A stretch of 64,000 bases of DNA from Denitratisoma oestradiolicum (GTDB taxonomy: Bacteria; Pseudomonadota; Gammaproteobacteria; Burkholderiales; Rhodocyclaceae). Where the stretch lies: NCBI RefSeq assembly GCF_902813185.1, contig NZ_LR778301.1, positions 4,010,001 through 4,074,000 on the forward strand. The letters are read 5' to 3'. Below the pieces are notes generated by a model. The model did not search any database. It was not told the DNA's origin and saw only the letters and a program-made list of their open reading frames with translations. Positions 2,113-20,000 of the stretch are shown here, piece after piece (positions within the stretch are counted from its first letter, which is position 1; each line of letters begins with the position of its first letter). Both the position numbers and the translations under genes were made by a program.

Positions 2113-4758
2113 TTACACGAGTGTAATAACTTCAGCGGCCAGCGTGGAACTGGCGAGATCAACCACACCAACCAGTTCGATCACCAAATCGACACCGTCA
2201 GAGTACGTGGCAGCTGCCGCGTTATCGACGGTAACGTAGGTGTTGCCGTTGTACTGGAACCAGTTGGCAATAGCGTTGCCGCTACCGTTACCCGCGTTGG
2301 CTGCATCCAGGTAATTGGCGAATGTGGCTGCACCACCCAGGGTGATTTTGGCGCCCAGGGTCGCTTCTGCCACCAATGTACCTACGCTAGCACCGACCAA
2401 GTCGATCTTATCGCCGGCAGCGATACCGATGATCGAAGGATAGTAACCGGCAGCGCTCGTAACATGGTTGACATCGAACGTATCCACACCCGAACCGAAG
2501 GTGATGACGTTCAGGCCAGCCATAACTGCCGAGGTCGAGACCGTATTCGTACCGGTACCTACATCCACCGTATTGGCGCCTGCGCCGATGGTGATCGTGT
2601 CGTTACCAGCACCACCACTCAGGACGTCATTGCCCGAACCACCGGTAATCGTATCGTTACCAGCACCACCACTGATGGTGTCGGCCTTGCCAGCGGCAGA
2701 ACTACCGGTCAGCGCGTCATTACCAGCACCACCGGTCAGCGTAACACCGGTCGTTGCCGCGGTCGTGACGGTCACCGCACCACCCGCACCCGTCGCCGTC
2801 ACACCACTGGCATCAACTTTCGTCAATGCCGTCAGAGTGGAACCAGCCAGACTCAGGCCAGCGTCACCGGAGATGGTGATGGTCTTAGTAGCAGCAACAA
2901 CCAGCGGGGACACAAATGCGGCCGTAGCAGCTGTCGTATCGGTGTCGTCGGTGGTAATGGTGAGAGTTTCGACGTTGGCGATCGTGTATGCAGCGGAGTT
3001 GGTAAAGCCATCGGTCGCGGCAAACTTAAGATTAACGTTGTCCGTGGTACCACTGTCGACTGCGAGAGCAACGCTACCCGCGACGGTAGTCGCCGCCGTT
3101 TGTACCAGCGTAAAGTCGGCAGCAGCACCTGACACTGTCAATGCAGCAGTCGAACCAGCGATAGACAAGGTGTTCATTCCATCTGCCTTGGACATGTCGA
3201 TGGCAGCGGCACCAGCGGCATCACTCAACGACAGTACTTCAAAGTTTGAGACAGTTGCTGCAAAAGCAGTTGAACCCGTCGCAGTGACACCTTGAGCGCG
3301 TGTCATCACGATCGTATCAGTACCGTCACCAGCATCTACTGAACCACCCGTACCCATCACGCCAGCATAGGTCACGGTATCATTCCCTGCGCCGGTTGTA
3401 ATGGCGGTTGTGCCCGAAGCAGACAGGGTAATCGTATCAGCGCCGCTACCACCCACATATTTCTGACCAGCAAGAATTGCGCCGGTGAATTTCACATCAC
3501 CAGTGCTGGTGCTAGTAATTACAGCAGCCGAATTAAACGTATGACCAGAAACAGTCAGGGCCTTGTCGCCGCTGATGTTCACTGCTTTGGCGCCGGAGGC
3601 CGACAGGCTGTTCAGGGTGCTCGCAGCTGTGCCGGCAGCGACGTTCACCGTCGTGTAATCGCTGTCCAGAGTCACTGCGCCCGTGGTGGTGATGCCGTTC
3701 AGGTTCAACGCCAGGGTGGTGGCAGTCGCGGTGGTCAGCGCGCCCGAGGTTTCGGCAACACTGGTGCCTTTGCCGGCCAGGGTCAGAGTGGCCAACGCAC
3801 CAGAATTGATGGTAGCTGCACCGAAGTTCTCCAGGCTGACCGTGGTGATCTTGCCAGCAGCGGTGGCGGAAGTGGAATTCACGTCAGTGATGGTGACATC
3901 ACCGGCCGCAACGCCCACTACGCCTTGAACAAATGCAGCGCCCTGTGTCGTTACCAACGCATCAATAGCATTTGAAGCATCAGTTTCAGCAAGGTCTGTA
4001 ACGTTTGAACTAGCGGTAGTACTCGTAAAAGTAATAACACCGCCAACGTTTGCACCACTTGAGAAGCCGGTCAGGGTGCCAGAGTATGTACCAGTAGCTG
4101 CAGCACCACCAGTAGTAGCACCAGCAGCCAAACTTGTAAAACCAGCGATCAATTGCGCTTGGGTAGTTACGCCAGTTGATGTATACGTCAATCCGCCAAT
4201 CGTTACTGATTGACCTGCCGTCAAACCAGTCGCATTGATTGTGACCGCCGTTGACTCGGTTACGGCTGTAACACCCGTAACAGCAGCAACCGGAGCAGAC
4301 TCCTTGACGGAAACGCTGGTCGTGTCGGCAGTACCAGTCACAGTAACGGCGCTACCGGTGGCCGTGCCATTGGCACCAACGGCTGCTGCGGTGGAGTTCG
4401 TCGCAGTTTGCGTAACCGAAACGGTCGTGCCGCCCTTGACGGTGATTGCGCCAACAGCAGAAGCGGAGGCAGCGGAGCCCACGCTCGTAACGGTCACTGC
4501 ACCGGTGGGTGCAGTAGTGGCGCCCACAGAGATTGTGCCGGTGGTCTGACCTGCGGTCGTGACGGTAGTAGCAGCAGTCCCGTTCAGCGAGATGTTACCG
4601 GCCACCTGCGCACTGTCATTCAAAATCAGCGAAGTCAGGCCAGTATAGGTGGAGGCATCCAGGGTATAACCAGCGCCCGAGGTGTTGATCTTGAGGGTTT
4701 CAACGTTGGTAACGGTCGCTCCACCGGGTGAAGCTGTACCGATGGTGTTGATGGTCAT
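2113..4758 (-). CDS. RTX/S-layer-like beta-strand repeat protein, copy 1 (start disrupted)
   Basis: Thr/Ala/Gly/Val-rich protein of at least 881 residues with almost no Cys or Trp. The body is repeated 'TLTxxxNVETLTI'-like beta-strand units. Near the C-terminus come calcium-binding RTX nonapeptides (GGAGNDALTG, GGAGNDTITG, GGSGNDVLSGGAGND), then a conserved tail with WFQYNGNTYVTVDN and a final DLVIELVGV. These features fit surface-layer or adhesin-like proteins exported by type I secretion. The frame is open well upstream of the first internal ATG (4758): codons from 4899 down encode an RTX-like TLTTSSDTITGGSGNDTING. The natural ATG with its ribosome-binding site at 4900 is in another frame (next entry). 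Either the gene is frameshifted, or expression depends on slippage, or the base call is wrong. Confidence 0.8.
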   Translation of the reverse strand: MTINTIGTASPGGATVTNVETLKINTSGAGYTLDASTYTGLTSLILNDSAQVAGNISLNGTAATTVTTAGQTTGTISVGATTAPTGAVTVTSVGSAASASAVGAITVKGGTTVSVTQTATNSTAAAVGANGTATGSAVTVTGTADTTSVSVKESAPVAAVTGVTAVTESTAVTINATGLTAGQSVTIGGLTYTSTGVTTQAQLIAGFTSLAAGATTGGAAATGTYSGTLTGFSSGANVGGVITFTSTTASSNVTDLAETDASNAIDALVTTQGAAFVQGVVGVAAGDVTITDVNSTSATAAGKITTVSLENFGAATINSGALATLTLAGKGTSVAETSGALTTATATTLALNLNGITTTGAVTLDSDYTTVNVAAGTAASTLNSLSASGAKAVNISGDKALTVSGHTFNSAAVITSTSTGDVKFTGAILAGQKYVGGSGADTITLSASGTTAITTGAGNDTVTYAGVMGTGGSVDAGDGTDTIVMTRAQGVTATGSTAFAATVSNFEVLSLSDAAGAAAIDMSKADGMNTLSIAGSTAALTVSGAAADFTLVQTAATTVAGSVALAVDSGTTDNVNLKFAATDGFTNSAAYTIANVETLTITTDDTDTTAATAAFVSPLVVAATKTITISGDAGLSLAGSTLTALTKVDASGVTATGAGGAVTVTTAATTGVTLTGGAGNDALTGSSAAGKADTISGGAGNDTITGGSGNDVLSGGAGNDTITIGAGANTVDVGTGTNTVSTSAVMAGLNVITFGSGVDTFDVNHVTSAAGYYPSIIGIAAGDKIDLVGASVGTLVAEATLGAKITLGGAATFANYLDAANAGNGSGNAIANWFQYNGNTYVTVDNAAAATYSDGVDLVIELVGVVDLASSTLAAEVITLV

Positions 4759-4900
4759 GGTGTCAGTGCCCGCACCACCATCAATTGTGTCGAATGCAGA
4801 CCAATTATCGGTCGTGCCGTTAGTACCACCATTGATCGTATCGTTACCCGATCCGCCGGTAATGGTGTCCGAACTGGTGGTGAGCGTATGACTTTGCCAT
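4759..4900 (-). other. Out-of-frame 5' end of S-layer-like gene 1
   Basis: The ATG at 4898-4900 follows a textbook AAGGAGGT seven bases upstream. It encodes only MAKSYAHHQFGHHYRRIG before a TAA. The RTX frame runs one base out of phase through the same DNA as SHTLTTSSDTITGGSGND. Loss of one base, or of one AC from an ACAC tract near the fifth codon, would explain this. The repaired start would be MAKS-(Y)TLTTSSDTITGG, a typical beginning for this protein class. Confidence 0.75.
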
Positions 4901-4942
4901 GAAATACCTCCTTGAATCAGTAGCCACTTTTCCGGTTGCGAT

Positions 4943-4972
4943 GATCATCCCATCAATCTTGCTGGGATGATC
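4943..4972 (-). promoter_or_regulatory. Stem-loop in the 5' leader of S-layer-like gene 1
   Basis: The perfect 10-bp arms gatcatccca (4943-4952) and tgggatgatc (4963-4972) enclose a 10-base loop. The stem sits about 45 bases upstream of the ribosome-binding site on the minus strand. No T-run follows, so a messenger-stabilising or protein-binding leader hairpin is more likely than a terminator. Long structured leaders are common on S-layer transcripts; the link here is inference. Confidence 0.5.
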
Positions 4973-5110
4973 AAGCGGCAACTGCGCTTACTGAGGAGCG
5001 GTGTATTGATTTATTAGGGATATTTCCCTTCCCGGTACCATCCCAGTATCCCATGGGCCTGCAATCCATCTCACAGCCCGCATCGAGGTGGAGTAAGAAC
5101 CTCCTTGCTA

Positions 5111-5131
5111 TGTAGTCTCAGTGTGACTACA
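5111..5131 (+). promoter_or_regulatory. Probable toxin-antitoxin operator
   Basis: The dyad tgtagtc (5111-5117) and gactaca (5125-5131), with a 7-base centre, lies about 33 bases before the antitoxin ATG. RelB/DinJ antitoxins autorepress by binding such dyads over their own promoter. Binding here is inferred from position only. Confidence 0.5.
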
Positions 5132-5163
5132 ATTTACACTGCCAATTGGACTGGAGGTCCATC

Positions 5164-5433
5164 ATGAATACCGCTGCCGACACCTACGTCCGCGCTCGTA
5201 TAGATTCCGCTACCAAGGAGCGTGCCGCCACTGCCCTGGAAGCGATGGGCCTGTCCATCTCTGATGCCATCCGTCTGCTGATGCTGCGGGTTGCTGACGA
5301 GCGCCGGCTACCCTTCGAGGTCAAGGCTCCGAATACCGTTACTCGGAAGGCTATGGCTGAGTTGGAAGCTGGGAAGGGTAAGCGCTTTGCTTCCGTGGAG
5401 GACCTGATGGCGGACCTCCATGCGCACGATTGA
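5164..5433 (+). CDS. RelB/DinJ-family antitoxin
   Basis: 89-residue antitoxin. The N-terminal half has the ribbon-helix-helix pattern of RelB/DinJ proteins (YVRARIDSATKERAATALEAMGL then SISDAIRLLMLRVADE). The C-terminal half, with MAELEAGKGKRFASVEDLMADL, is the flexible part that wraps and neutralises the toxin. I start at the ATG at 5164 because GGAGG lies six bases upstream; a TTG at 5146 is in frame but has no such site. It overlaps the toxin gene by 14 bases, so the two are translationally coupled, and it should autoregulate through the upstream dyad. Confidence 0.9.
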   Translation: MNTAADTYVRARIDSATKERAATALEAMGLSISDAIRLLMLRVADERRLPFEVKAPNTVTRKAMAELEAGKGKRFASVEDLMADLHAHD

Positions 5434-5701
5434 GCGATCCTCAGCGTTTAAGCGCGACTACAAGCGGGAAAGCAAAGGCGCCCACCGGGCATCCTTGGAC
5501 ACAGATTTGGTTCACGTTCTCACAGCATTAGTGCATGACAAACCACTACCAGCAAAGCTGCGTGATCACGATCTCAGCGGCGATTGGGCTGGATATCGTG
5601 AGTGCCATATCAAACCTGATCTACTGCTGATCTATCGAAAGCCCGATGCAGAGACCTTGAGGCTGGCACGCCTTGGCTCTCACAGTGAGCTTTTCGGCTA
5701 A
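5420..5701 (+). CDS. YafQ/RelE-family mRNA interferase toxin
   Basis: 93-residue RelE-superfamily toxin. The YafQ-like pattern is clear: RSSAFKRDYKRESKG at the N-terminus, PLPAKLRDHDLSGDWAGYRECHIKPDLLLIYR in the middle, and a terminal RLGSHSELFG. The conserved His/Asp pairs (RDHDL, ECHI..D and a C-terminal GSHSELF) are those used for ribosome-dependent mRNA cleavage in YafQ. It starts inside the antitoxin gene. The pair lies just outside the integrase end of the 5.8-12.3 kb element, so it may be host DNA or cargo. Confidence 0.9.
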   Translation: MRTIERSSAFKRDYKRESKGAHRASLDTDLVHVLTALVHDKPLPAKLRDHDLSGDWAGYRECHIKPDLLLIYRKPDAETLRLARLGSHSELFG

Positions 5702-5775
5702 CCGAGCCGCTGGCGCGGGGTGGGTTGGTACGGCCAGTGTTGGCCCATCAACAAATCTGACCAACCATGAAAAAA

Positions 5776-5791
5776 CCCCGCCGGAGCGGGG
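5776..5791 (-). terminator. Terminator of the integrase gene
   Basis: The arms ccccgc (5776-5781) and gcgggg (5786-5791) with a 4-base loop are followed, on the minus strand, by six T. It lies 27 bases beyond the integrase stop codon. Confidence 0.8.
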
Positions 5792-5817
5792 TGAGGGTGA
5801 GTCAGTCAACATATGGC

Positions 5818-7020
5818 CTACGCAAAAATACCTGTCGCCTGTACAGCGGCATTGGCCTTATTTTGCTTCCGAGAATCCAACAGATGGAGATATACAGCAG
5901 TCGTCTTCAACTGTGTATGAGCCAAGGCTGCCTGCACATCGATAATGTCAGCGCCGGACTCCAACATCATACTTGCAAACGTGTGACGCAAATCATGGGT
6001 GCGCAATGTCGGCAGCCCAGCCCGTTTCCGAACCATTTCCCACGCGGCGCGGCAGGAATGGTAAGGCTTGCCGGTCTTGGGGTTCGGGAATACCCAACAT
6101 GACGTTGCATTTTGTTGGCGTTTCTTCAACAGGTCGACAACCTCGGCGGCCAGAAATACACTGAAGCCCTGCTTGGCTTTGTCAGCCCAATCGGGTACGG
6201 TCAAAGTTCCGCGCTCCAAATCCAACCAGCTCCATTGCATGGACAGCACATTAGACCTGCGCAATCCAGTGGCAGCGGCTACACGGAGGATGTCGAGAAG
6301 ATCAGGGTTTTCTGATTGCTCTGCGGCGGCCATTAGCCGTTGCAGCTGAGCTGCATTCAGAAATTGGCCAGTCACCTTACGGATCGTTTTCAGTTTGAAG
6401 GATTTGGTCGGGTTCTCAACGACGACGTATTTCCCATTTTCAATCGCCACATTGAAAAGATGCCGAATAAGAATCATGATTCGCTTCACCGTACCCTCTG
6501 ACAAGGTCTTACCCTGCTGAGTCTTCCATCTGCCACCTGCAACCGGTTTGTTCTCCAGTTCATCCTTCAGGACCTGAAGTACCTCCTTGTTGATTTCCCT
6601 AAGGCGCATTTGTCCGAGGGCGTCTTGGAGGTGATTTCTGTATATGGAAGCATGGGTTTCAGCGGATCGACTGTTTGATCTTACCTCCGGCATATAGGTA
6701 TCGAAAAAGAACTCCTCCAGCGTCGGGTTCAGCTTCTTGCGGTCACCAGGCGCCATGATGCCTTTGGCCTTGGCGATATCTTCTAATCGGACTTTAGCCA
6801 AGGACCGGGCAGCTTGTGCTGAGATCTCCCCGACTTTGGCAATCTTTTCCTGCCGTTGTTTGCCGTGAGGATCACGGTAGGAAACGATGTAGGCCTTTGA
6901 TCCGGCCGCTGTTACAACCGCAGCAAAACCAGTCTGTTCTGTATCGAATACTGCAATCCATTTCTTGCCATTCGGAACTTCCAGACGGGACAAAGCAAGT
7001 TCGCTGATGTGAAATTTCAT
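5818..7020 (-). CDS. Tyrosine-type integrase of the integrative element
   Basis: 400-residue site-specific recombinase. The N-terminus carries a DUF4102-like arm-binding fold (SKAYIVSYRDPHGKQRQEKIAKVGE). A SAM-like core-binding region follows, then the catalytic domain. The active-site residues are visible: Arg in ATGLRRSN, the HDLRHTFA box (His and Arg), AHTQ, and the nucleophile Tyr in TTAVYLHL. I use the ATG at 7020 because AGGAGAA lies at good spacing before it. The gene sits at one edge of a replication-gene element whose other edge carries an AlpA-like gene. That is the usual arrangement for an integrase working with an excisionase. I could not find matching att repeats. Confidence 0.93.
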   Translation of the reverse strand: MKFHISELALSRLEVPNGKKWIAVFDTEQTGFAAVVTAAGSKAYIVSYRDPHGKQRQEKIAKVGEISAQAARSLAKVRLEDIAKAKGIMAPGDRKKLNPTLEEFFFDTYMPEVRSNSRSAETHASIYRNHLQDALGQMRLREINKEVLQVLKDELENKPVAGGRWKTQQGKTLSEGTVKRIMILIRHLFNVAIENGKYVVVENPTKSFKLKTIRKVTGQFLNAAQLQRLMAAAEQSENPDLLDILRVAAATGLRRSNVLSMQWSWLDLERGTLTVPDWADKAKQGFSVFLAAEVVDLLKKRQQNATSCWVFPNPKTGKPYHSCRAAWEMVRKRAGLPTLRTHDLRHTFASMMLESGADIIDVQAALAHTQLKTTAVYLHLLDSRKQNKANAAVQATGIFA

Positions 7021-7849
7021 GACGGCTTCTCCTAGCCGCACTCATGGCAAAGCGCCGATACCCCGTTGAGGGGCTATCCAGTCGAAACCGTGCGAAATTT
7101 GACCTACTGCGTATAGGTTCACGAGCAGCTTTAGCCCCCCGAATACGAACAGGGGGCAATTCGATGTCTCCGGATTCTGAAAAACTCCCATCGCACGCGA
7201 CTGGATTTTTCAGGTGCAGGGGCCATGGCAAATGCGAACATCAGCCCTTGGGCTGAGGCAAAGGGCGTCCAGCCCGCGCCAGAGCAAAGCCGCGATTGCG
7301 GCTGCGCAGCGCCCCAGCGCGAAGAGCACCCGTAGGGCAGTGGCGGACCGGCGTCCGACAGTGGATTTGGCAGCGCCCACGCTGACAAATCTGCCCTATG
7401 GGGGGAGCCAACAGACCGGCAATGGCCCGTCCAGGGCCCATTGAGGCGCCCCAAGCGCCGACGGAGTGTTGGGGGGTGGAACAACCCCGGGGCCCCGACC
7501 ACGGTCGGGCAAGGGGGGCACGTCGCAAATCCCTCGGGCCCCGGCTCACCCCGTGAGACAGGGTAGGGATTTAGCGCGGGGGGAATTTTGGCGACCCTGG
7601 TCGGCAACCCCGTGCGGCGGCGTGCGCCCCTTGCCCGAGCGCAGCGGAGGGCCCCCAGCGTGAGCCTGCCCCTAGGCAGGCAATCCCCGTTCTGCCCGTC
7701 CAGGGCAGACGCAGAGGGGATGGTCACGTAGCCCTTCCAAGGAAGGGCGCCTCGCCACGAACGCAAAATGCGTTCGTACCTGTCCGTCATAGTGGGCGAC
7801 GTCGATTCCGGAGCTATACCGGGTATCAACTTGCCCAGGAGCGCCCACC
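7021..7849. other. Non-coding, GC-rich, dyad-rich stretch between integrase and MobC-like gene
   Basis: No credible gene: the open frames on both strands are Arg/Pro/Gly-rich, low-complexity and unlike any family I know. The left 120 bases hold the integrase promoter region, with an accta/taggt dyad near 7098-7116. Further right are several short stems: agccgc/gcggct at 7289-7304, a gcctgcc/ggcaggc pair near 7666-7682, and ctgccc/gggcag near 7692-7710. Such a stretch upstream of a MobC-like gene could hold an origin of transfer or replication, but I see no clear iterons and no confident nick site. Confidence 0.45.
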
Positions 7850-8653
7850 ATGACCAATTTTCTTGCAGCTTCCACCACCGCCAATCAGGACCGCGGGCCT
7901 CGTGGCAAAGCCGCTGATCACCGGCTCCGCGCAATGATCGCTCTGTCGAGATTGGGTTACGCAAGCACCCGCCAATTGGCTCGGATTGTTTGGGGAAAGA
8001 TCACGGCATCCAGCCTCCGCCAGGCCCAGCGGTTGATTGCCGTGCTGTCTGACGAGCGGCTGATCGTTGTTCGGCGTGATTCGATGGCATGTCAGCAGAT
8101 GGTGGCCCTGACGGCCACCGGGGTCCGCTGGCTCTCTTTTGAAATTCCTGGAGACAAGGCCCACGCCCGGGATTGGCTGCGGCATGCTCACGCCCACCGC
8201 ACAGCCTGTAATAGTGTTTTTGCTGCAATTGGGGCACCCGCCTATGGCTACACGGAACTAGAAATCCAAAGCCAGCAGGCACCCTGCAAAAGCCTTTATC
8301 ACAAAGTGCCAGACCTGCTAATTGCAGACAGTTCTGGCTGGACCTGGGTAGAAGTTGAACACAGCTATCGAAGTGCCAAGGATTTTGAGAAGGTCATCCA
8401 GTGGCTACGCTGGGTGTTTAACCAAGAAAACTCTCCGGTTCGAGAGGTCTGGTTCGTCATCACCCGGCCTGGCGCCAGCACCATCGGTCAGCGACTCCGA
8501 ACAGCCCTGACCCATCAGGATTTTAGGGATGGCATTCCTCGGCAGATTCGCGAGCTCGATGCCCGGATTCTTTCCCGCCATATCCAGATCTGGAAGCTGG
8601 ATCACGATAGCCTGGAGCTGGAACCGGTACCGCTGATCCGTTCTGTCAGTTAA
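7850..8653 (+). CDS. Replication-relaxation (MobC-like) family protein
   Basis: 267-residue protein resembling the replication-relaxation/MobC-like family found on mobilisable elements. The N-terminal half is a winged-helix DNA-binding region (ASTRQLARIVWG ... LRQAQRLIAVLSDERLIVV). After a His-rich linker (DWLRHAHAHRTACNSVF) comes a segment with VPDLLIADSSGWTWVEVEHSYRSAKDFEKVIQWL. Its PD...(x)n...EVE spacing recalls PD-(D/E)XK nucleases, although the usual Lys after ExE is replaced by His. The role, probably plasmid relaxation or mobilisation, is inferred from the family and from the RepA/RepC neighbours. It is the only gene of the element on the plus strand. Confidence 0.7.
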   Translation: MTNFLAASTTANQDRGPRGKAADHRLRAMIALSRLGYASTRQLARIVWGKITASSLRQAQRLIAVLSDERLIVVRRDSMACQQMVALTATGVRWLSFEIPGDKAHARDWLRHAHAHRTACNSVFAAIGAPAYGYTELEIQSQQAPCKSLYHKVPDLLIADSSGWTWVEVEHSYRSAKDFEKVIQWLRWVFNQENSPVREVWFVITRPGASTIGQRLRTALTHQDFRDGIPRQIRELDARILSRHIQIWKLDHDSLELEPVPLIRSVS

Positions 8654-8974
8654 GGAGCACTGGCCTTTACTCCCCCCGGCCTGCGGCCGACCCCCAGGGG
8701 TAATGGCCGGCGGGGGAAGGGGATGGCCGGGAACGGCTCCAGCCAGTACAGCAGGACCGACAATTCACCCGCGAGGGCTCATCTTCTTCCCCGCTGGCCC
8801 CACCCTCAGGGTCGCCGGCTTGCCCGGCGGGGTGGTTTGAGAGGCAAGGAAGGGCGGGCCACCAGCCCCGCCCGACCCGCGCAGATAGAGATTCTTAGGG
8901 AATCTTAGAAGGACGGATTGGAATCCGCTGAAACCCTTGTGCCAGAAGGATTTCCATGAATCGCAGCGGGAACG
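8654..8974. other. Convergent intergenic region of the element
   Basis: GC-rich stretch between the convergent MobC-like and repC genes. It holds a long imperfect stem with ccccgc at about 8803 pairing with gcgggg at about 8829, and the short direct repeat attcttag/aatcttag near 8890-8908. No coding signal and no array of 20-bp iterons is visible. Confidence 0.4.
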
Positions 8975-9895
8975 TTATCCAGGGGTTTGGGGAAGGTTAG
9001 CCGGGGGTCGGGGGAATGTTGGCCGGGGGGGGAGCGATGGCTGGGCGCTCTCCTGGGTTCCCGACTTGGGCCGGCATATCCAAAACTTCCCCGGGGCGTA
9101 TTCCTCGACACCCCAGCCAATGTCGGATAGTTCCGCCAGTGCCTTGCGGGCCACCTGCCGGCGCTTCTTCATGGTATCCGGGTTGGCTTGATCCGGCCAG
9201 ACATAGGAACAGAGGGTATCCAGCATTACCCCTTTCCGCTGCCCGGCATTGATCCAGTGCAACCGCTGGTGCATCAACCGGGCTGGGTCGGACTTCAACG
9301 CCCGGACCTCGGCCAGATCAATCCTGAAATACTGCCGATCTCCCAGAATGGACTCGGTCAGTCGGGGATTCAGTGCCACCAGCAGTTGGCCCGATGCCGA
9401 GTCGCTGGCATAGCAGGACAAAATCCGGAACCCCATGCGCCGCCCCTCCCGTTCCACAATGATCGATACCTTCCAGAGCCGTTCAATGCATTCCCGAAGC
9501 TGGCGGGCATCCTCGATGTCGCTGTAACCAATTTCTCGGGCCAGCTGGCGGAAACTGCCTTTGACCACCAGGGCATCTTGATCGGCGGCATCGGATTCTG
9601 CCTCCAACAGCCGCCGCAAAGCCTTGCCTTCATGGGTGGCTGGGGTCGGCGGCAGGACGATGCCTCCGCCTTCTGTCCCACACACAGCTGCCATCGCCAC
9701 CAAACCCTGAAGCACCCGCAGATCATCAGCCCCCAGGGGTTCCGGACCAGAAAACTCAATCCGATCGCTCCCAGACTGATAAACAACCGAGAGTTTCAGG
9801 CGTTTTCGGTCGCCTCGCTTCAGGCTGCGAAACAGGCCAGGAGCCAAGCAATGGGCCGGATCGTGCCGAGCGTGGGTAAGCTCAAAGGGTTTCAT
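8975..9895 (-). CDS. repC: IncQ-type replication initiator RepC
   Basis: 306-residue protein that matches the IncQ (RSF1010) origin-binding initiator RepC across its length. It has HARHDPAHCLAPGLFRSLKRGDRKR, EFSGPEPLGADDLRVLQGLVAMA, DALVVKGSFRQLAREIG, a CIERLWKVSIIVEREGRRMGFR segment, and a closing DTLCSYVWPDQAN...TMKKRRQVARKAL. In IncQ plasmids RepC binds the oriV iterons and melts the origin. The gene starts inside the repA stop region (14-base overlap), as in coupled rep operons. The last 30 residues form a Pro-rich tail. Finding an IncQ initiator beside a tyrosine integrase on a chromosome is unusual. Confidence 0.9.
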   Translation of the reverse strand: MKPFELTHARHDPAHCLAPGLFRSLKRGDRKRLKLSVVYQSGSDRIEFSGPEPLGADDLRVLQGLVAMAAVCGTEGGGIVLPPTPATHEGKALRRLLEAESDAADQDALVVKGSFRQLAREIGYSDIEDARQLRECIERLWKVSIIVEREGRRMGFRILSCYASDSASGQLLVALNPRLTESILGDRQYFRIDLAEVRALKSDPARLMHQRLHWINAGQRKGVMLDTLCSYVWPDQANPDTMKKRRQVARKALAELSDIGWGVEEYAPGKFWICRPKSGTQESAQPSLPPRPTFPRPPANLPQTPG

Positions 9896-10742
9896 AAGCC
9901 CTCCCCCGCTTCCGGCCCTGGTTTGCCGGCTGCAAGGACACCGGCCTCAATATCCCACCCTGTCCCCGCTGGTACCACTGGCCGGCCTCTACCTGACCAT
10001 AGTTCTGTTTGCCGGTCTCGTATCGCACATAAAAACCCCGGTCTCGCTCAGCAATGGGCTGGCCATCAAGGGTCAATTTTTCCGCATCGTCCTGACTCAT
10101 CTTGACCAAGCTGGCGCAGAACCGGGCATTGTCGATGAGCGCCGAGGCCCCCCGGGCCGCCTGCTGCATGGCACCCTGCCCGGCCAGGGCGGTGGCTTTG
10201 CTGGTATGGTGCAGGAAGAGGATCGCTGCTCCGGTTTGGCGTGAAATACTCTCCAGCCGTGCGATCAGCGCGGCCATCTGGCCGTTGTCGTTTTCATCGC
10301 TGCCGTGGCACCGGCTCAGGGTATCCAGGATTACCAGTCTCATACCAGCAGCAGCCTTTAACAGGCCCGCATGGAATTTCGGGTCCATGATGTCCGAGCG
10401 AATACCCTGCCGAGCCGAAAGAGTCAGGTTCCCGGCGACGGCCTGACGAGTGATAAGGTCGAAGCATTGGCCCAAGTAAAAGAGCCGGCGCTGGATCTCT
10501 TCCGGGGGATCTTCAAGGTTCAGGTAGAGCACTTTCCCCTGGCCGTGGATTGCCAAACCAGTTGTATTGGCCTGGGCAGTACCCCCGGCGATGGCGGCAG
10601 CCAACTGAAGCGCGAGGAAGGACTTCCCTGCACCTCCAGGGGAAATCAGCGCACCCACCGTACCTACCAGGAAGCCCGGCAGTACAAAATCCTGTCGGGC
10701 GGGTTCATGTGAAAAGGCATCCAAAATGTCAATGCGCGGCAT
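9882..10742 (-). CDS. repA: IncQ-type hexameric replicative helicase RepA
   Basis: 286-residue RecA-fold ATPase very close to RSF1010 RepA. The N-terminus IDILDAFSHEPARQDFVLPG leads to a Walker A SPGGAGKS (about residues 34-41). A Walker B follows in LVILDTLSRCHG, then ILFLHHTSKA and a QQAARGASALIDNARF segment. In IncQ plasmids RepA is the 5'-3' helicase loaded at oriV with RepC. The ATG at 10742 is chosen because GGGAGG lies eight bases upstream and the resulting N-terminus matches the family. It overlaps the primase gene by 14 bases and repC by 14 bases, so primase-repA-repC form one coupled minus-strand operon. Confidence 0.92.
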   Translation of the reverse strand: MPRIDILDAFSHEPARQDFVLPGFLVGTVGALISPGGAGKSFLALQLAAAIAGGTAQANTTGLAIHGQGKVLYLNLEDPPEEIQRRLFYLGQCFDLITRQAVAGNLTLSARQGIRSDIMDPKFHAGLLKAAAGMRLVILDTLSRCHGSDENDNGQMAALIARLESISRQTGAAILFLHHTSKATALAGQGAMQQAARGASALIDNARFCASLVKMSQDDAEKLTLDGQPIAERDRGFYVRYETGKQNYGQVEAGQWYQRGQGGILRPVSLQPANQGRKRGRAYETL

Positions 10743-11661
10743 GATCAGCCTCCCACCGCAGATAATCCGCGACATCCTTGATACCGGGGGGCGGTAGCCA
10801 AAGTCTCACGTCGTCCGTCAGCACCCGCAGCCGCTCCGCCTGACGTTGGTGCTGGGCGTCGGTCCGAGCCTGTATCTCGTTGGTCGACTCACGATCCCGG
10901 GCGACGATGACAGTGAAGGCCACTGCCAGCAGGGCCTGGATGTGGGGTTGCTCGATCCAGGCCAGGCAGCCCGCGCCCCCTGAAACAATCACCGTGGGTG
11001 GGCTATCTGAATGACGTGTGTGCAGCGCCAGGGCATCGACGCCGCCTTCCACTACCCAGACGGTCTCAGGGCATCCTGGCAGTATCGGGGGGTAAGCCTT
11101 GTCACTCCCGGCCAAATCCCGCTTAGGTACAGGATCAGCAGACAAATACCCCCGGCGGGTGGCGCTCCTGGGCTGATCGCCGTCATAGCCAACAAACAGC
11201 ACCGCCCCGGGGATATAGCGCAGCATGCCGCAGGCCTCGGCCATGTCCAGCGCGGATGGGGCGATGTGGCGGCTGCGCAGATAATCCCGGCCGGCAATTC
11301 GGTCAGCTTCAGTCCCCCGAGGCAGGTGCAGGTGTCGTGGGAGCGCGGATGGCTGGGGAGTCGCCGGGATAGCCGCTTGGCCCAGCAAACATTCCAGTGC
11401 CGGCTTAAAGCTCAGGCTCAGTACTGCCTGGACCAGGGCAAGGTTGTCGCCAATGCCGGTCCCGTCGCGGTGGCACCAAACCATGCGGCCCCCTTTATCG
11501 GTGCCGCGCATTCCGTTCGCAAGCTCGACATGCCTTCCCTGGCGGTGGATTTGGTGGCCCAACAGTTGGGCAACCAGCTCCGCATCCAGAGACCGCGCGA
11601 CTTCCACCGGCAGCCGCACCGGTGACGTGTGGTGCCGTTTCTTGAAGTGATCCAGACTCAT
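10729..11661 (-). CDS. Toprim-domain primase of the element
   Basis: 310-residue protein with a Toprim fold like those of phage and plasmid DnaG-type primases. The first conserved acid is in VWVVEGGVDALAL, the second region in TVIVARDRES, and a final GIKDVADYLRW is typical of this group. The N-terminal part contains MVWCHRDGTGIGDNLALVQ, which resembles the region before Toprim in plasmid primases, but no complete Cys4 zinc ribbon is visible. It replaces the RepB' primase that accompanies RepA/RepC on classical IncQ plasmids. The ribosome-binding site GGGGAGG lies just upstream. First gene of the rep operon. Confidence 0.8.
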   Translation of the reverse strand: MSLDHFKKRHHTSPVRLPVEVARSLDAELVAQLLGHQIHRQGRHVELANGMRGTDKGGRMVWCHRDGTGIGDNLALVQAVLSLSFKPALECLLGQAAIPATPQPSALPRHLHLPRGTEADRIAGRDYLRSRHIAPSALDMAEACGMLRYIPGAVLFVGYDGDQPRSATRRGYLSADPVPKRDLAGSDKAYPPILPGCPETVWVVEGGVDALALHTRHSDSPPTVIVSGGAGCLAWIEQPHIQALLAVAFTVIVARDRESTNEIQARTDAQHQRQAERLRVLTDDVRLWLPPPGIKDVADYLRWEADHAAH

Positions 11662-11973
11662 GCCGCCCCTCCCCTCTGGCGATGGGGGTGGGCATCGGCT
11701 GCTGAAACCTCATGACCCTGAAAAGTCGCGGCCCCGCAGGGGCCAATCTCACTATCTGTGTTTCGCACAGGACGTCTCCAATGACGCCGGGCGATCAATG
11801 TCCAGCGCGGAAATCTTCCGCGCTGGTCTGGTTTGTCCTGTGTGTCGCACTGAGCGACGATTATTTACCTGTGCCCGACTGGGTTTTACCAAGTCAATCT
11901 GACTTGGCAGCTGAGTATAGGAAAAGAATGGTGTTTGGCCGGTTCGTATAGCGAAACACACCGTGCCAGCATG
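11662..11973. promoter_or_regulatory. Dyad- and repeat-rich control or origin region of the rep operon
   Basis: Non-coding stretch upstream of the primase-repA-repC operon. It contains ggcccc/ggggcc (11730-11744), an 11-bp perfect dyad ccagcgcggaa/ttccgcgctgg around an ATC centre (11802-11826), and an 8-bp dyad ccaagtca/tgacttgg around another ATC centre (11889-11907). Three copies of a tgtgtttcgc-like unit are also present: 11757-11766, a tgtgtgtcgc variant at 11839-11848, and 11951-11960 inverted. This could be an iteron origin, an operator set, or both; no function can be proved from the sequence. Confidence 0.55.
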
Positions 11974-12010
11974 AAAAAAACACCGGGGGGCTCCTTGCCT
12001 CCCCCCGGTG
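11974..12010 (-). terminator. Terminator after the excisionase-like gene
   Basis: The 10-bp GC-rich arms caccgggggg (11981-11990) and ccccccggtg (12001-12010) are followed by seven T on the minus strand. It lies 27 bases past the stop of the AlpA-like gene and insulates it from the rep operon. Confidence 0.9.
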
Positions 12011-12036
12011 CCGGGCGCTCGATTACAGCGAAAGAT

Positions 12037-12219
12037 TCAGTTACTTTTTTGGGTGTGGGTGGTCAGCCAGTTCTCGACATCTACCCTTCGGAACCGATGC
12101 AAATTGCCAAGTTTGATACCCGGCGGCAAGGATGCTTTCCTGAGGCGGCGCTGATAAATGGCCTCCACGCGCACGCCCAAAACCCTGGCCAAATCTTTGG
12201 CCGTCAATAGCTCTTCCAT
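12037..12219 (-). CDS. AlpA/excisionase-like helix-turn-helix protein
   Basis: 60-residue MerR/AlpA-type DNA-binding protein: ELLTAKDLARVLGVRVEAIYQRR is the helix-turn-helix, and GIKLGNLHRFRRVDVENWL is the wing with the usual 'R-F-x-x-x-D-V-x-x-W' ending. Proteins of this size and fold act as excisionases or activators of integrase genes on islands and satellite phages. It lies at the opposite end of the element from the integrase, has its own strong terminator, and is preceded by two strong dyads. The exact role (excisionase or regulator) is not resolved. Confidence 0.8.
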   Translation of the reverse strand: MEELLTAKDLARVLGVRVEAIYQRRLRKASLPPGIKLGNLHRFRRVDVENWLTTHTQKSN

Positions 12220-12236
12220 CTCGAAATCTCCTGGTA

Positions 12237-12319
12237 ATTCCCGGCAGTTTTTGCGTCACGCCCGATTGCGTGGCCACCAGGGCATTCCTGCTTGCCGGGA
12301 ATACCCCCCCTGTGGGGGG
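12237..12319. promoter_or_regulatory. Two strong dyads upstream of the excisionase-like gene
   Basis: A 10-bp perfect inverted repeat attcccggca (12237-12246) / tgccgggaat (12293-12302) encloses 46 bases. It is followed at once by cccccc-tgt-gggggg (12305-12319). These may be operator or attachment-region structures at the right edge of the integrative element; no matching core was found at the left edge. Confidence 0.4.
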
Positions 12320-12432
12320 CACTACCGTATAGGGAGATTCCTCGGGTTAGCCTGAGAAATATTTCGGGAATGGAAAATCGTGTGCCATCCCGCTCTGCGG
12401 CGTGGATGAGCGGGTTTTATTGGTTCAATACA

Positions 12433-13101
12433 CTACACTATCGGTGCCGCGAGAATGTGCATGTCACCGTACTCCGAGTAGGGCATCGTATCTTGCTGAA
12501 CCTGTAGGAGCAGGTCGTGTCCCAATGATTTCGGCGAGACCCGTGCGTAAATAAAGCATCCAGGCAGGACATCCCTCTCGGCAACTTGCATTACGGATCG
12601 CTGTATTGGAGCAACCCAGAAGGTGATCCTGGGTTGCTGAGGGCCGTAAGGATTTTCCAGCACGGCATGATATTGACCACCGGGTTTTTCTGGCTTTGGC
12701 GCTTCCACTGGATAGTGTTTGGGGGATGCGAGAAGGTGAGTCGCCACTTGCTGCAAGCGGTCGAGTGTACGGAGGTCAATGCGTGGAATGTTGGTCCTGC
12801 GCTTTATTCCATTCAGCACGGGTGTCGGCTTCTTGATCGAGGGATGGAATGTCAGATGTAGATGATCTGCCACGTCATTCCCAGAAAGACCATCAATCTT
12901 TTCTGGTGCTGTTGTTGGCTGAAATCTGCCATGGTCAAAATTTCCCATGACCTCAAAGAGGTTTCGACCATTGGAAAAGGCACGGGTAACAAGATCACCG
13001 TTGTTTGAGCACCGGAACCAGAGCATGATCCGAGTACGTTCGCCGTCTTTTACATAGAGACGGAACAGGTTGTCAGCAGGAAGATCGTGCACCGGTAGCA
13101 T
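12433..13101 (-). CDS. Hypothetical protein, 222 residues
   Basis: I do not recognise this family. The protein is soluble-looking, with no signal peptide or membrane segment. Two patches look ordered: NLFRLYVKDGERTRIMLWFRCSNNGDLVTRAF at the N-terminus, and RITFWVAPIQRSVMQVAERDVLPGCFIYARV near the end. TAGGAAAAA precedes the ATG, a usable ribosome-binding site. Its base composition is lower in GC than the rep genes beside it. It lies between the integrative element and the glycosyltransferase operon and may be cargo or an adjacent accessory gene. Confidence 0.6.
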   Translation of the reverse strand: MLPVHDLPADNLFRLYVKDGERTRIMLWFRCSNNGDLVTRAFSNGRNLFEVMGNFDHGRFQPTTAPEKIDGLSGNDVADHLHLTFHPSIKKPTPVLNGIKRRTNIPRIDLRTLDRLQQVATHLLASPKHYPVEAPKPEKPGGQYHAVLENPYGPQQPRITFWVAPIQRSVMQVAERDVLPGCFIYARVSPKSLGHDLLLQVQQDTMPYSEYGDMHILAAPIV

Positions 13102-13167
13102 TTTTTCCTAACCTACACAAAGACAACGTCTTAAACGGTGAGTTCGGCAAAGTTTTCTGGAGTGCCT

Positions 13168-15345
13168 TCACGTCGGGAATATCCCCTCCGCCAGTTCTCG
13201 CACAGCACCTTCTTCCATCGGCGCCTTTGTCGCCACAACCCATAAATCCAATGCCGACTCACGCCGTCTTCCTGCAATGGTTCTAAATCCAGCGGATTGC
13301 AAAGCCTGGGTCAGGCTTTTGAGCGTAAATCCGGACTTGTGAGCCATGTATTCATGGCCAGCAGCCAAAGCTGCCCCATGTCCATACAGAATGTCCAGGG
13401 GAGTGATCGGTCCGGCAGGCGATTGATAGGCGGCTTCCGTCAGCTTGTCCTCTGCCACCCAGGCACACACACTCTGCAAATCGGGACAAGTGATAACCGC
13501 ATACCCCTCCGGCTTAAGCACGCGTAAAAACTCCTTCAGCACAACCGGGACTTCATGAGCATAGACATGCTCAATGTTGTGGGCCGAGTAAATGGCATCA
13601 ATGCTGTTATCGGCCACGGCAGACATTTCCTGCATGGACCCAATGATGTCTGGTTCATTGCATGGGTCAATATCCAGTCGAAGTTCCGTCCAACCTGACG
13701 ACCGAAATGCCGCAGGCAGCTTGGCGCCATTATCCCGGTGACCAGTGCCCACATGAAGGATGGTCTTGCTTGTCATGATCTTTTGTTTTTCCTGCGCTTC
13801 GATGCTGCGATAGAGGCTCACTAAGATACCTTCAAGATTCCGGGTAAAGCCTGTGACATCCATCAGGGAGCTATCCCGCATCCGTTGCCGCAGGCTTCTT
13901 CTCAGGTCGATCAGCCGTTGTCTATCCCCGGCCAAGCTGGCAGCTATACGTACGTAGTCCTCTGCATCCTGAGCCGCCAGTTCGGCAAGGCCAATAGCAC
14001 AGAGAAAGGCGTAGGTCTGACGGCTCACCACCCGCCCCTGGGGCCAGGTCACCACTGGCACCCCCATCCATAGGGATTCGCAACTGGTCAGCCCGCCGGT
14101 AAAGGGGAATGGGTCAAGCGCAATATCGATATCCCCATATTCCTTCAGCAAGTCTGCATGAAAGCTAGGTCCACGCAATTCGACTCGTTCTGCTTCAATC
14201 CCTCTTTCGCAAAAGGCGGTCTGGATTGATTGACAAAGGGGTTCGTCATTAAAGGTACGCCACTTCAGCAACAGTCTGGAGTTTGGCACCGCAGTCAGAA
14301 CCTTGGCCCAAACATCAAAGACACCATCGTTCAGCTTGGCTGTATTGTTGAAGCACCCGAAAGTGATATAGCCATTCTCCTCGAATGGGGGTGGAGCCAC
14401 ATCAAAAGGCGCCCAGGGTACAGGCTGATAGCAGAAGCGTCCTCCTGAAAGTCTCAGGATTGGTTCCACGAATTGAGTCTCGATCCCTGGCGGTGCATGC
14501 CACTCATCCAACAAGACAGCATCCAGCGTTGACAGGCCCGTGGTGGCGAAATAACCCAGCCAACTCACCTGCACAGGCGCAGGTCGATGAGCAAAAACAG
14601 TCAGTTTTGATCCTGCCGTATGCCCGGAGAGGTCGACCAGGACGTCGATCTGGTCCACTCGTATTTTCTCAGCCAGGCGCTGGTCATCCAGATGGCGAAC
14701 ATCGATGAATTTGCAGTAGCGGCGTATCGTGGCCGTAACCCAGTCGTCCACTGGCCCGGCACTGTAGGCAAAGACAGTTATCCGTTCAGGTTCGTGTCGG
14801 GCCAGAACTTCTTTGACGAAAAGACCCACAGTATGCTGGCAAAAATCAGCCGATACATAGCCGATGCGCAATCGTCGATGAGTCAACGCACTCATCGCTG
14901 GCCTGGGTCGTGCGCCCCCGGCCTGGGCAATGGCCCAGGCGCCCCAGGTCTTCGCCTGGATCAATCTTGCATCATCACCAATCTCCCCATCGTATTCCTG
15001 GCAAACCAAGGCATTCCGTCGCACGACAGGATGATGGGGGGCCTGTTCCAGCAAGGCTGCATAGCGGCGCCGCGTCTCAGCATGTAGGCCCATCTCACGA
15101 CAGACATTTGCCAGATTGATCTGGCTGGCAATGTCCTTTGGCGTCAGGGACTGGGCTTGCTTAAAACAATCTGCTGCGTCAGTCAGGTAACCCGCGTTCA
15201 GCAGCAAGCCTCCTGTTTCCTGGAGTACCTGCTCGTCTTTACGGAAATCCCGGACCAGTATTCGGCAAGTGGCCGTCAGGTCCTGAAATCGGCCCGATAG
15301 AGCAAACGCACGGGCCGAATGCAGCAAATCTTCAGCAGAAGACAA
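13168..15345 (-). CDS. TPR / GT41 (SPINDLY/OGT-like) glycosyltransferase fused to a SAM methyltransferase
   Basis: 725-residue three-part enzyme. Residues about 1-130 are TPR-like helices (AFALSGRFQDL, DAADCFKQAQSLTPKDIASQINLANVCREMGL). Residues about 155-520 are a GT41 glycosyltransferase with RIGYVSADFCQHTVG, VDLSGHTAG, PVQVSWLGYFATTG, and the UDP-sugar site LDPFPFTGGLTSCESLWMGVPVVT. Residues about 530-705 are a class I methyltransferase (ILHVGTGHRDNG, LRLDIDP, YSAHNIEHVYAHEVPVVLKEFLRVLKPEG). The gene follows the methyltransferase by 26 bases, so the two are probably co-transcribed. The only in-frame start is a TTG. An ATG 20 bases upstream is in another frame, so a start-proximal indel is possible. 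The likely role is O-glycosylation and sugar methylation of the S-layer-like protein (inference). Confidence 0.85.
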   Translation of the reverse strand: MSSAEDLLHSARAFALSGRFQDLTATCRILVRDFRKDEQVLQETGGLLLNAGYLTDAADCFKQAQSLTPKDIASQINLANVCREMGLHAETRRRYAALLEQAPHHPVVRRNALVCQEYDGEIGDDARLIQAKTWGAWAIAQAGGARPRPAMSALTHRRLRIGYVSADFCQHTVGLFVKEVLARHEPERITVFAYSAGPVDDWVTATIRRYCKFIDVRHLDDQRLAEKIRVDQIDVLVDLSGHTAGSKLTVFAHRPAPVQVSWLGYFATTGLSTLDAVLLDEWHAPPGIETQFVEPILRLSGGRFCYQPVPWAPFDVAPPPFEENGYITFGCFNNTAKLNDGVFDVWAKVLTAVPNSRLLLKWRTFNDEPLCQSIQTAFCERGIEAERVELRGPSFHADLLKEYGDIDIALDPFPFTGGLTSCESLWMGVPVVTWPQGRVVSRQTYAFLCAIGLAELAAQDAEDYVRIAASLAGDRQRLIDLRRSLRQRMRDSSLMDVTGFTRNLEGILVSLYRSIEAQEKQKIMTSKTILHVGTGHRDNGAKLPAAFRSSGWTELRLDIDPCNEPDIIGSMQEMSAVADNSIDAIYSAHNIEHVYAHEVPVVLKEFLRVLKPEGYAVITCPDLQSVCAWVAEDKLTEAAYQSPAGPITPLDILYGHGAALAAGHEYMAHKSGFTLKSLTQALQSAGFRTIAGRRRESALDLWVVATKAPMEEGAVRELAEGIFPT

Positions 15346-17054: not shown

Positions 17055-20000
17055 TTAGTTGATCTGGATGGAAACGTCGGTGGTATCGAAAGAGGCAGTG
17101 CTCAGATCGACAACGCCGGTCAACTTCACGATCAGGTCGGTGCCGTTAGTGAAGCTGGCGCCATTGCTGATGTTTTCGACAATGTAAGTATTGCCACCGA
17201 AAGCAAACCAAGTGACATCACCCGTATTGGTGTTGTTGATCGCGGCGTTGGCATAGTCCTGGAACACTGCGGTATCCGCCAAAGTCAGCGCGGAAGCGGC
17301 GAATGTCTCGGTCGTGCCCACGACATCGGAGAACGCAATCAAGTCACCCTTGCTCGCATCAGTAATCGTAGCGTACGTATTGACGTTGGTCGAAGCAGTC
17401 AGGATGTGGAACCAGTCATTGCCCGTACCGCCAGTCAAGGTTGCAAGACCCGCATTGGAGTACAGATGGTCAGCACCAGCACCGCCAATCAGGACATCCG
17501 CCACCGTACCGGTGGAAGCCTTCAGGGTGTCAGCACCGGAACCGCCGGTGATGGTTTCAGCTACCGTACCTGCGGCCTGCACCGTCAGCGCGCCAGTCAT
17601 GGAGCCGGCGTTGATAGTCTTCAACGCGGTGTTACCCGTATTGAACAGGATCAGGTCGGCATCGCCATCGATGGTCAGCGTCGTTGCCGAAGTCGCTACC
17701 AAGGTCAGGGTGTGATCGGCATTAATCGTCGTGCCGCTGTCATCTGCTGTGATATTGATGCTTTCGATGCTGGCAGCGGTAACCTTGCCGCCGGTAACCG
17801 TAGCGTCACCCGAGAGGATGATGTTCAGGCTATCGGAAGAACCGGTTGCGTCAGTCAGAGTCACGGTGGAGTCACCCGTACCGGTCAGCATCAGGGTCGC
17901 TGCGTTAGCCACGTTGGAGAGAGTCAGCGCACCTGCGGCGGTGTTGCCGGTCACGGCTCCCTTCGTTGCCACTGCATCTATGGTGTTGGCATCAACAACA
18001 GATGTCGTCGTAGTGAGCGCAATACCAGCAGAGTCGGATGTGATGTTGAGAATACCAGCGGCACCAGCAGCTGCGGTGACCATATTGCCCAGGATCGCAT
18101 CATTATTGATCGCACTGATAATCCCAGCAGCAATAAGCGTGGTGGTCGTATCGGCGGCCGTGGTCGTATATGAAACCGAGTAACCGTTAATGGTTACAGT
18201 AAATTTATCTCCAGCTTCCGCCGTAGTTACCCCCAGGTCGATTTTATCAACTTGCGCAGTGCCGGGGCCACCAGCGCTAATTACGTAGCTGATGTCATCC
18301 AGGTTCGCCAGATTGACCGTCTTGCTTTGGGTAGCAGTCACTGCACCTACGCTCAACTTTTCGAAACCATCAATTTGGGCTTCGAACGTTGCGCTAGCAG
18401 TAGCAGTAGCAGCATCAGCAGCAACCATCACCAAGGTGTCGGTACCGTCACCGCCAGACAGGGTGCTGGTGGAAGCCGTGGTACCGGAAGCCAGCGTCAG
18501 CTTATCGTCACCACCACCAAGGGAGATTGCCTTGGTGGGGGTTGTGGTCGTCACGGTGGTCACGTTGTCCACGCCTGCACCACCGGTATAGGTTGCAGTA
18601 CCGGGGTTCACAGTCGCCGTTACGGTGCCGGTGGTAGCGGAGGTGTTGATGGAGGTGATGGTGTCTGCCTCATCACCATCCAGCGTCAGCCCGGCAGAGC
18701 CGGAAACCGTGACAGTTGCCAGTACGGCCAGGGTCGAGCCGGTCAAATCCAGCTTTTGATCACCGGCAACAGTCAGCGCCGTTACAGCACCGCCAGTGAC
18801 ATCTACATCGGAGGCTGCGCCAGTCGTGGTGATATTCAGTGTGGAATACTTGGCTACACCGTTATCAAGGGTCACTGCGGAAGCTGCACCCAGGTTGTTG
18901 AGGGTCAGGCCCAGCGTTGTGGCGGTGTTGTTGTATACCTTGAGCTCGCCGCCAGTGTTGTTAGCCAAGGACAGGGAGGTCAGAGCATCCGACTTGACTT
19001 CCGAGTTCGTAGCATAACCGCTCACCGTAGCAGTGGTAATGGTGTTGGTGCTCGCACCATAGGCGGCATCAACGATGGTGACGGCGCCGTTCACGATACC
19101 GCCCTTACCTGCTGCGGTAACAGCATTCACGCCATCCGTGGTCACTACGACGGTGGGGTTAGTACCAGTACCGGTATCAGCCAAGTCGGTACGCACGCCA
19201 GCGGAAGTGCCGGTGAAAACAACGGTCGAAGTGCCGGTGACAGCACCGCTAGTCCAGCCCTCTGCACTGAAGGTGCCGGAATAGGTACCCAGTGTCGAGG
19301 CACCCTGCACAGCACCAGCCGACAGATTGGCAAATGCGGCAGCAGTTTGTGCAGCCGTCGTACCAGCAGCACCGGCCGTGAAGGTCAGGCCGTTGATGAT
19401 CTGGGTTTGACCCGCAGTCAACGCAGCGAAGGTCAGCGTGTTGACTTCGGTAACACCTGTCACCGCAGCTGTCGTTGCCACCTTGGATACAGCCGCAGTC
19501 TGAGTAACGGTTGCACTGGTGGTGCTCGTGCCACCGGTCACGGAAATGGCACCAACTGTCGTATCGGTGTTGTTGGTGGCCTGGGTGGCATTCACAGTGA
19601 CGTTGACGCTGGAGCCGCCCACCGTGGTGATCGCACCACCCGTGGTGTTACCAGTACCATTTACATTCTGGACGATAGTAATCGCACCACTAGGTTTGGC
19701 AGTCGCAACAGTGCCGACATCAATGGTTGAGGTCGCAGTATCCGTGGTCGTCACATTGACCGAGGTACCGTTATCGACCTTAATGTTTTTAGTGTTCTGA
19801 TTGGTGACCGTCAGCGAAACAGCACCGGCACCGCCATCAAGAGTAACGTTACCACCAGCCTTGGTAAGGGATACGGTTTGAGTGGAACCACCTGTCACAT
19901 CAACAGTACCGCCGGTTGCCCCACTCAGAGAAACAGCAGTCGTAGTTGCAGCAGTAAGGTCGACATTACCGTTAGCCTTCGTGACATTAAGAGCAGTCAG

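Follow-up and report, generated by a model that had tools for sequence, protein, structure and literature searches.

A probable small integrative element with an IncQ-type RepA-RepC replication module and a stand-alone Toprim protein in the chromosome of Denitratisoma oestradiolicum

Introduction

The IncQ-1 plasmid RSF1010 carries a RepB-type primase and 20-bp iterons, together with RepA and RepC proteins of families that recur in the locus described here. This locus lies in the chromosome of Denitratisoma oestradiolicum (assembly GCF_902813185.1, contig NZ_LR778301.1, positions 4,010,001 to 4,074,000; this 64,000-nucleotide stretch is the window, to which coordinates refer) and is probably a small integrative element built around an IncQ-type replicon.

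Three described plasmids, pAHH04, pGNB2 and pKAM330_7, offer a close comparison. The first has been named IncQ-3 (PMC7557826; here and below, each paper is cited for part of its text only), the other two are IncQ-3-type by exact motif match, and all three are typed IncQ2 by MOB-suite in PLSDB. They are mobilizable plasmids with an open reading frame (ORF) of 813 amino acids (aa) for a MobA-primase, with MobC and with an origin of transfer (oriT), all of which the window lacks, while the window has integrase, AlpA and Replic_Relax-like genes that set it apart from them. A relaxase-primase fusion has been described for IncQ-3 plasmids (PMC7557826).

An integrating form of the IncQ replicon is, as a broad idea, already known. 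The island GIsul2, located at guaA, comprises int, alpA, repA and repC; deletion of int abolished its integration, whereas deletion of alpA/repA/C did not, and its circles were detected by nested polymerase chain reaction (PCR) (PMC9376610). A review of integrative and mobilizable elements includes GIsul2 RepA and RepC in its list of functions that may maintain an element once excised (PMC5704250), and ICERspD18B carries repA and repC and was shown by PCR to form a circle (PMC7775301). These guaA islands resemble the locus in being chromosomal and in having a tyrosine integrase, AlpA and IncQ RepA-RepC. They differ in their target, the 3' end of guaA, in their P4-like integrase and in TrbJ and TrbL, the window having no match to GuaA and none to TrbJ or TrbL at 1e-3.

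Gene content and IncQ affiliation

Between 5818 and 12376, the window holds genes for a tyrosine integrase, a Replic_Relax-like protein, RepC, RepA, a stand-alone Toprim protein and an AlpA-like protein (Table 1). The alpA-like, Toprim, repA, repC and integrase genes lie on the minus strand and only the ORF at 7850-8653 on the plus strand; in an ORF scan all six are open. A preliminary description of this DNA, which saw a chromosomal locus bearing integrase and AlpA with an IncQ replication module, is borne out to this extent, all the genes it named being present as open frames. It overlooked the Replic_Relax-like ORF, the origin of iterons and A+T box, the folded DNA at 7450-7740 and the right limit near 12376; its observation was thus right if understated, and its interpretation half right. 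We consider it probable that the locus is a small integrative element, of about 6.6 kb if its bounds run from the integrase terminator to 12376. We likewise favour, with fair confidence, the view that its maintenance module is an almost complete replicon of IncQ-2/IncQ-3 type that has shed mobilization. A profile search found a single RepC in the host genome, on its 4.17-Mb contig.

Judged from their profile and structure-database matches, RepC and RepA are true IncQ proteins, as the preliminary description had supposed. Among PDB entries RepA matched one distinct sequence, 1g8y, which we take to be RSF1010 RepA; a Walker B motif was found, and the GGAGKS loop is the same in the alignment with 1g8y. 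The primase-RepA-RepC order is that of pAHH04, pGNB2 and pKAM330_7, and the 14-nt repA/repC overlap is that of pAHH04. Against these three plasmids, identity is 60-63% for RepC, 48% for RepA and 45% for the Toprim protein; against four IncQ-2/3-type RepC proteins it is 60-65%. A search of 72,556 plasmid records with RepC gave 1155 matches, 52 at 60-80% identity and 1103 below 60%; among the best were pKAM330_7 (66%), pTC-F14 (65%) and the pGNB2/pAHH04 group (63%). Many common small IncQ plasmid records, presumably IncQ-1/RSF1010-like, stand at 56.5% (from a listing spread over all ranks). RepC and RepA thus appear nearer to IncQ-2/3 by identity.

Origin region

IncQ-type origins of vegetative replication (oriV) combine iterons of 20-22 bp with an A+T-rich region, and both are found in the window. 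The 22-bp array across the repC stop is the sole tandem array that Tandem Repeats Finder reports in 4800-13200. Arrays of 22 bp occupy the same place at the repC end in pKAM330_7 (3.5 copies), pTC-F14 (4.9), pAHH04 (2.0) and the guaA element L006 (4.5), as well as in the guaA-island relatives L041, L042 and L046; in pAHH04 and pKAM330_7 they are likewise accompanied by an A+T box. In comparison with the A+T boxes of pKAM330_7 and pAHH04, the 120 nt beyond repC score better than any of 1495 random window positions or 500 shuffles. The likeness to pTC-F14 is weaker (8 of 1495 positions and 3 of 500 shuffles as good), and that to L006 is not special (739 of 1495 and 168 of 500). A five-way alignment of the window with four references shows a collinear succession of iterons, G+C stretch, A+T box and GCGC end. 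The published 15-bp IncQ-3 motif and palindromes are not conserved, with 3-5 mismatches in the window, nor are they in pTC-F14 or L006, and the fold of the stretch beyond the A+T box is unremarkable (z -1.4). Since the array and the box are collinear with an IncQ oriV, the replicon looks complete from its sequence.

A stand-alone Toprim protein related to MobA

In Pfam the Toprim ORF reaches only a match below threshold (Toprim_3, E 0.0012), but its homologues are clear. It is 45% identical to residues 480-772 of the MobA protein of p9M_1 (L007), and in all four plasmids checked (L007, L011, L013, L035) the homologous region is the tail of the 813-aa ORF. Where the N-terminus of this ORF was scanned, in L007, it proved to be a PF03432 relaxase, and the depositors of pGNB2 annotated a protein of this type as a relaxase-primase fusion. 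Among the 72,556 plasmid records there were 52 matches, all below 60% identity and 50 covering at least 80% of the query; the last two differ, one falling in a region for a MobF relaxase and the other in DNA without annotation. A large protein set gave 240 matches, of which the best 120 were listed, and 20 that were aligned are 44-85% identical. This search takes only proteins of 0.55-1.75 times the query length and therefore excludes fusions by design; at least one listed match bears the name 'relaxase, partial'. A VEGG.DAL core is nearly invariant across the 21 Toprim sequences, and the Toprim motifs are present in the window protein.

By this kinship, the protein corresponds to the C-terminal domain of IncQ-3-type MobA, here standing alone, and not a replaced primase, as had first been suggested. 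The dedicated primase of IncQ replicons, which is RepB or, in IncQ-3, the MobA tail, would be provided by this predicted Toprim protein.

Mobilization and conjugation functions

No match to MobA residues 1-470 was found in 4760-13160, where MobC gave only matches of 10-17 aa at E 0.13 or worse, and the best window site for the 12-bp IncQ-3 oriT has 3 mismatches. The whole genome has no PF03432 relaxase, other relaxase classes not having been searched; a control search was positive in 1 of 14 genomes. With the MobA relaxase, MobC and oriT gone, the element probably cannot transfer itself. An integrative and conjugative element (ICE) is ruled out as far as these searches and those for TrbJ and TrbL go, and the 'plasmid/ICE intermediate' of the preliminary description finds no support in them.

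Table 1. Features of the element and their coordinates in the window
Feature	Coordinates	Strand	Evidence
Terminator-like hairpin 3' of integrase gene	5775..5792	-	Terminator scan; counterpart after L026 integrase
Tyrosine integrase, 407 aa	5818..7041	-	PF00589 E 3.2e-28, Arm-DNA-bind_3; R, HxxR, H-Y motifs present
G+C-rich folded non-coding stretch between integrase and Replic_Relax-like gene	7450..7740	.	Single-stranded DNA fold z -7.3, 0/200 shuffles as good
Replic_Relax (PF13814)-like protein, 267 aa	7850..8653	+	PF13814 matched by 8/12 aligned relatives, not by window protein
A+T-rich box of oriV	8888..8913	-	Likeness to plasmid A+T boxes; collinear in alignment
22-bp iterons, 2.8 copies, across repC stop	8968..9029	-	Tandem Repeats Finder score 68; TAAC-TTCCC-like cores at 9021, 8999, 8977
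RepC, IncQ initiator	8975..9895	-	PF06504 395.6 bits, E 1.3e-118 (cut-off 22.8 bits)
RepA, IncQ helicase	9882..10775	-	AAA_25 E 1.8e-35; PDB RepA 1g8y E 2.3e-66
Stand-alone Toprim primase-like protein	10729..11661	-	Homologous to C-terminal part of IncQ-3-type MobA
Rep operon upstream region, inverted repeats as putative operators	11755..11960	.	Repeat search
Hairpin downstream of alpA-like gene	11981-12010		Inverted repeat search
AlpA-like DNA-binding protein, putative excisionase	12037..12219	-	PF12728 (HTH_17) E 2.1e-8; PHROG 66 excisionase E 3.1e-7
Probable right end of element	12213..12376	.	90% identical repeat elsewhere in chromosome

The integrase module and the ends of the element

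A 57% identical integrase of the same clade lies on an 18,289-bp contig (L026), where a divergent Replic_Relax-like gene also adjoins it (28% identical to that of the window, with a Pfam E of 0.05 only). The gap between the two genes is again folded (z -4.4, 0 of 100 shuffles as good), and the DNA at 5767-5803 matches L026 by blastn (84%, E 0.002). Since the L026 integrase thus has its own divergent Replic_Relax-like gene and folded gap, these three components seem to form one module of the element and the IncQ operon a second. The Replic_Relax-like protein has invariant P-D and E-x-E residues in the alignment and homologues of 41-91% identity among the best 120 of 186, with no match among plasmid records; together with the adjoining folded DNA it may serve separately to assist transfer or replication.

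At E 1e-60 the integrase was found in 2 of 399 genomes, its own included, and in none of 379 genomes of one family, an empty answer that is uninformative. Viral contigs scanned with the integrase gave two relatives only, at 22-23% identity; the Toprim alignment gave 64 pattern stretches, none of them a relative, and a piece of the repeated right end gave no match.

On the left, the integrase terminator is the last feature common with L026. On the right, the 164-bp segment between the alpA start and 12376 has one other copy in the chromosome, at 90% identity (L020 10538-10702) and near a paralogous methyltransferase locus. Position 12376 is the probable right end, and the copy, read as a decayed sibling, suggests past movement. 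No tRNA gene lies within the window, which rules out insertion at a tRNA site, and an Rfam search gave no match.

Distribution among relatives

RepC was detected in 4 of 61 relatives at E 1e-3 and in 5 of 320 members of the order at E 1e-30, its own genome being counted in both. Stretches from all seven other RepC-bearing genomes were compared. Three (G035, G011, G347) are guaA islands with integrases 89-93% identical to that of L006, two with TrbJ and TrbL and the third with a piece of TrbJ at the edge of the stretch. Among the rest, a contig start in G142 carries RepA-RepC with TrbJ and TrbL, G010 has a distant RepA/RepC close to a MobA/MobL gene, G128 combines a P4-like integrase with RepC and a Replic_Relax-like gene, and G112 has the RepB-primase fusion. 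This Relaxase-RepB_primase fusion stands beside RepA-RepC on an 8.8-kb contig of an order relative (L045). Given these islands and their kin, integrated IncQ RepA-RepC is already established, in this small sample mostly as guaA islands.

The Toprim protein had no match at 1e-4 in any of the seven stretches, nor did its query match the guaA islands L006, L041, L042 and L046, where RepB-type primases were not searched. Within the sample, a primase-helicase-initiator-origin set without a relaxase was found here only. Our literature search, in which subscription papers were mostly outside coverage, returned no title or abstract opening describing a relaxase-free integrated IncQ replicon and no paper combining RepC, IncQ, Toprim and integrase.

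The G128 element (L047) is like the window in holding an integrase, RepC and a Replic_Relax-like gene close together, the last 30% identical to its counterpart (E 4e-11). It differs in its integrase, in a RepC of only 41% identity and in having no RepA or Toprim match at 1e-4. It spans 2218-10553 of L047, with two large ORFs between these genes and no RepA detected, and adjoins a large ORF that by eye resembles RecC.

Proposed mode of action and alternative explanations

Autonomous replication of the element after excision is plausible. AlpA and the integrase would excise it as a circle; RepC would bind the 22-bp iterons at the 3' end of repC, and RepA would unwind from the adjacent A+T box. 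The Toprim protein, or a host primase, would prime each displaced strand, and the circle could replicate by strand displacement until it integrates again. The rep operon may descend from an IncQ-3-like plasmid whose primase-like domain was the MobA tail. A bolder extension is doubtful in our estimate: that this is a self-sufficient integrative IncQ replicon, which replicates by strand displacement without a relaxase and passes from cell to cell by means of the Replic_Relax-like protein and folded DNA, a new transfer or single-strand-origin module of this integrase clade.

Several observations weigh against an intact, mobile replicon. The iterons are few and divergent (2.8 copies, 82% matches, versus 98-100% in pKAM330_7 and pTC-F14), and their place at the repC end is not universal, the p9M_1 array lying at 45-114, far from repC, and the pGNB2 iteron motif near 6444, away from it. 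In a tree of 12 of the 13 collected RepC sequences (L003 was left out), the window RepC sits on a long branch beside pKAM330_7 and pTC-F14 with weak support (63/28), and its affiliation is therefore claimed by identity only. No direct att repeat stood out, the longest exact word common to the flank zones being 11 bp and a local alignment of the flanks scoring no higher than shuffles. No empty site could be read, because two congeners hold none of the flanks except for one weak 91-bp match. The 164-bp copy comes without an alpA match, and the nearby integrase shares only 28.7% identity with that of the window. The L026 contig stops before any rep gene. The Toprim protein was found in 1 of 399 and 1 of 369 genomes, in both cases its own, with only some first-look candidates scored; since it was in no other sampled genome, the integrase-RepC-RepA-Toprim-AlpA synteny for which the preliminary description had proposed a search has no complete sibling there.

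Such points could be taken to mean that the locus is a decayed or captured plasmid fragment, an IncQ-like replicon that recombined into the chromosome next to an unrelated integrase and has ceased to move or replicate. The missing att repeats, the degenerate iterons and the difference in G+C content between integrase (0.516) and rep operon (0.618) would all agree with this, and the solo alpA-end copy shows that such elements can decay in this chromosome. We nevertheless regard it as unlikely: the six genes are all open, the Toprim homologues of similar length, a range that the search itself imposed, argue by their identities for a maintained gene, and integrase and Replic_Relax-like gene are adjacent in L026 too.

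Less likely still is a mobilizable island of the GIsul2 type, whose rep genes maintain it after excision while the machinery of a helper plasmid transfers it. The gene set of GIsul2 (PMC9376610, PMC5704250) and the repC-end arrays of the guaA elements speak for such a relation, but the window lacks matches to GuaA, TrbJ and TrbL, and its integrase shares only 21% identity with the guaA-type one of L006. It is similarly improbable that the integrase belongs to a neighbouring surface-protein-like locus and not to the rep operon, for although integrases at window 20802-22007 and L020 4358-5617 adjoin paralogous large genes, those two are divergent from the large gene whereas that of the element points towards it, and the latter is far closer to the L026 integrase, next to a Replic_Relax-like gene, than to that of L020. 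We therefore retain the integrative element with an IncQ-2/3-type replicon as the probable explanation.

Neighbouring features

Upstream of the rep operon, the inverted repeats TGTGTTTCGC/GCGAAACACA and a perfect 11-bp inverted repeat (11802-11826) are possible control sites. On the integrase side, a RelB/DinJ-YafQ toxin-antitoxin pair (5146-5701) may lie inside or outside the element; a 70% identical DNA copy is found on the 124.8-kb contig C2 (G000:C2:60583-61174). On the other side, a 222-aa ORF (12433-13101) without Pfam, PHROG, NCBIfam or plasmid match is absent from 60 relatives; it was considered as element cargo and dropped, being present in 1 of 61 genomes, its own.

Large repetitive surface-protein-like genes, so labelled by eye except for Pfam RTX repeats in the first, lie at window 2113-4758 and 17055-20234 and at L020 6201-8696, each adjoining a methyltransferase gene. 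At two of these three loci, a tyrosine recombinase in divergent orientation lies no more than about 600 bp away (window 20802-22007, L020 4358-5617), an arrangement that could form a switching or spreading system. A possible rearrangement hot spot is L020 8870-10702, where the 164-bp copy of the element end occurs together with a methyltransferase frame that breaks off at 143 codons, a 24-bp piece of a methyltransferase start and an IS200-like transposase gene (9690-10412).

Concluding remarks

The locus bears on the coupling of priming to transfer. According to PMC7557826, whether the MobA-primase fusion acts as one or two polypeptides is unsettled. IncQ plasmids often tie the two processes together through a fusion of primase and relaxase, and a natural stand-alone primase part without the MobA relaxase would show that priming is independent of the relaxase. 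Moreover, the element would provide a small, defined system in which to study the role of a plasmid origin within a chromosome and the way in which it stays silent.

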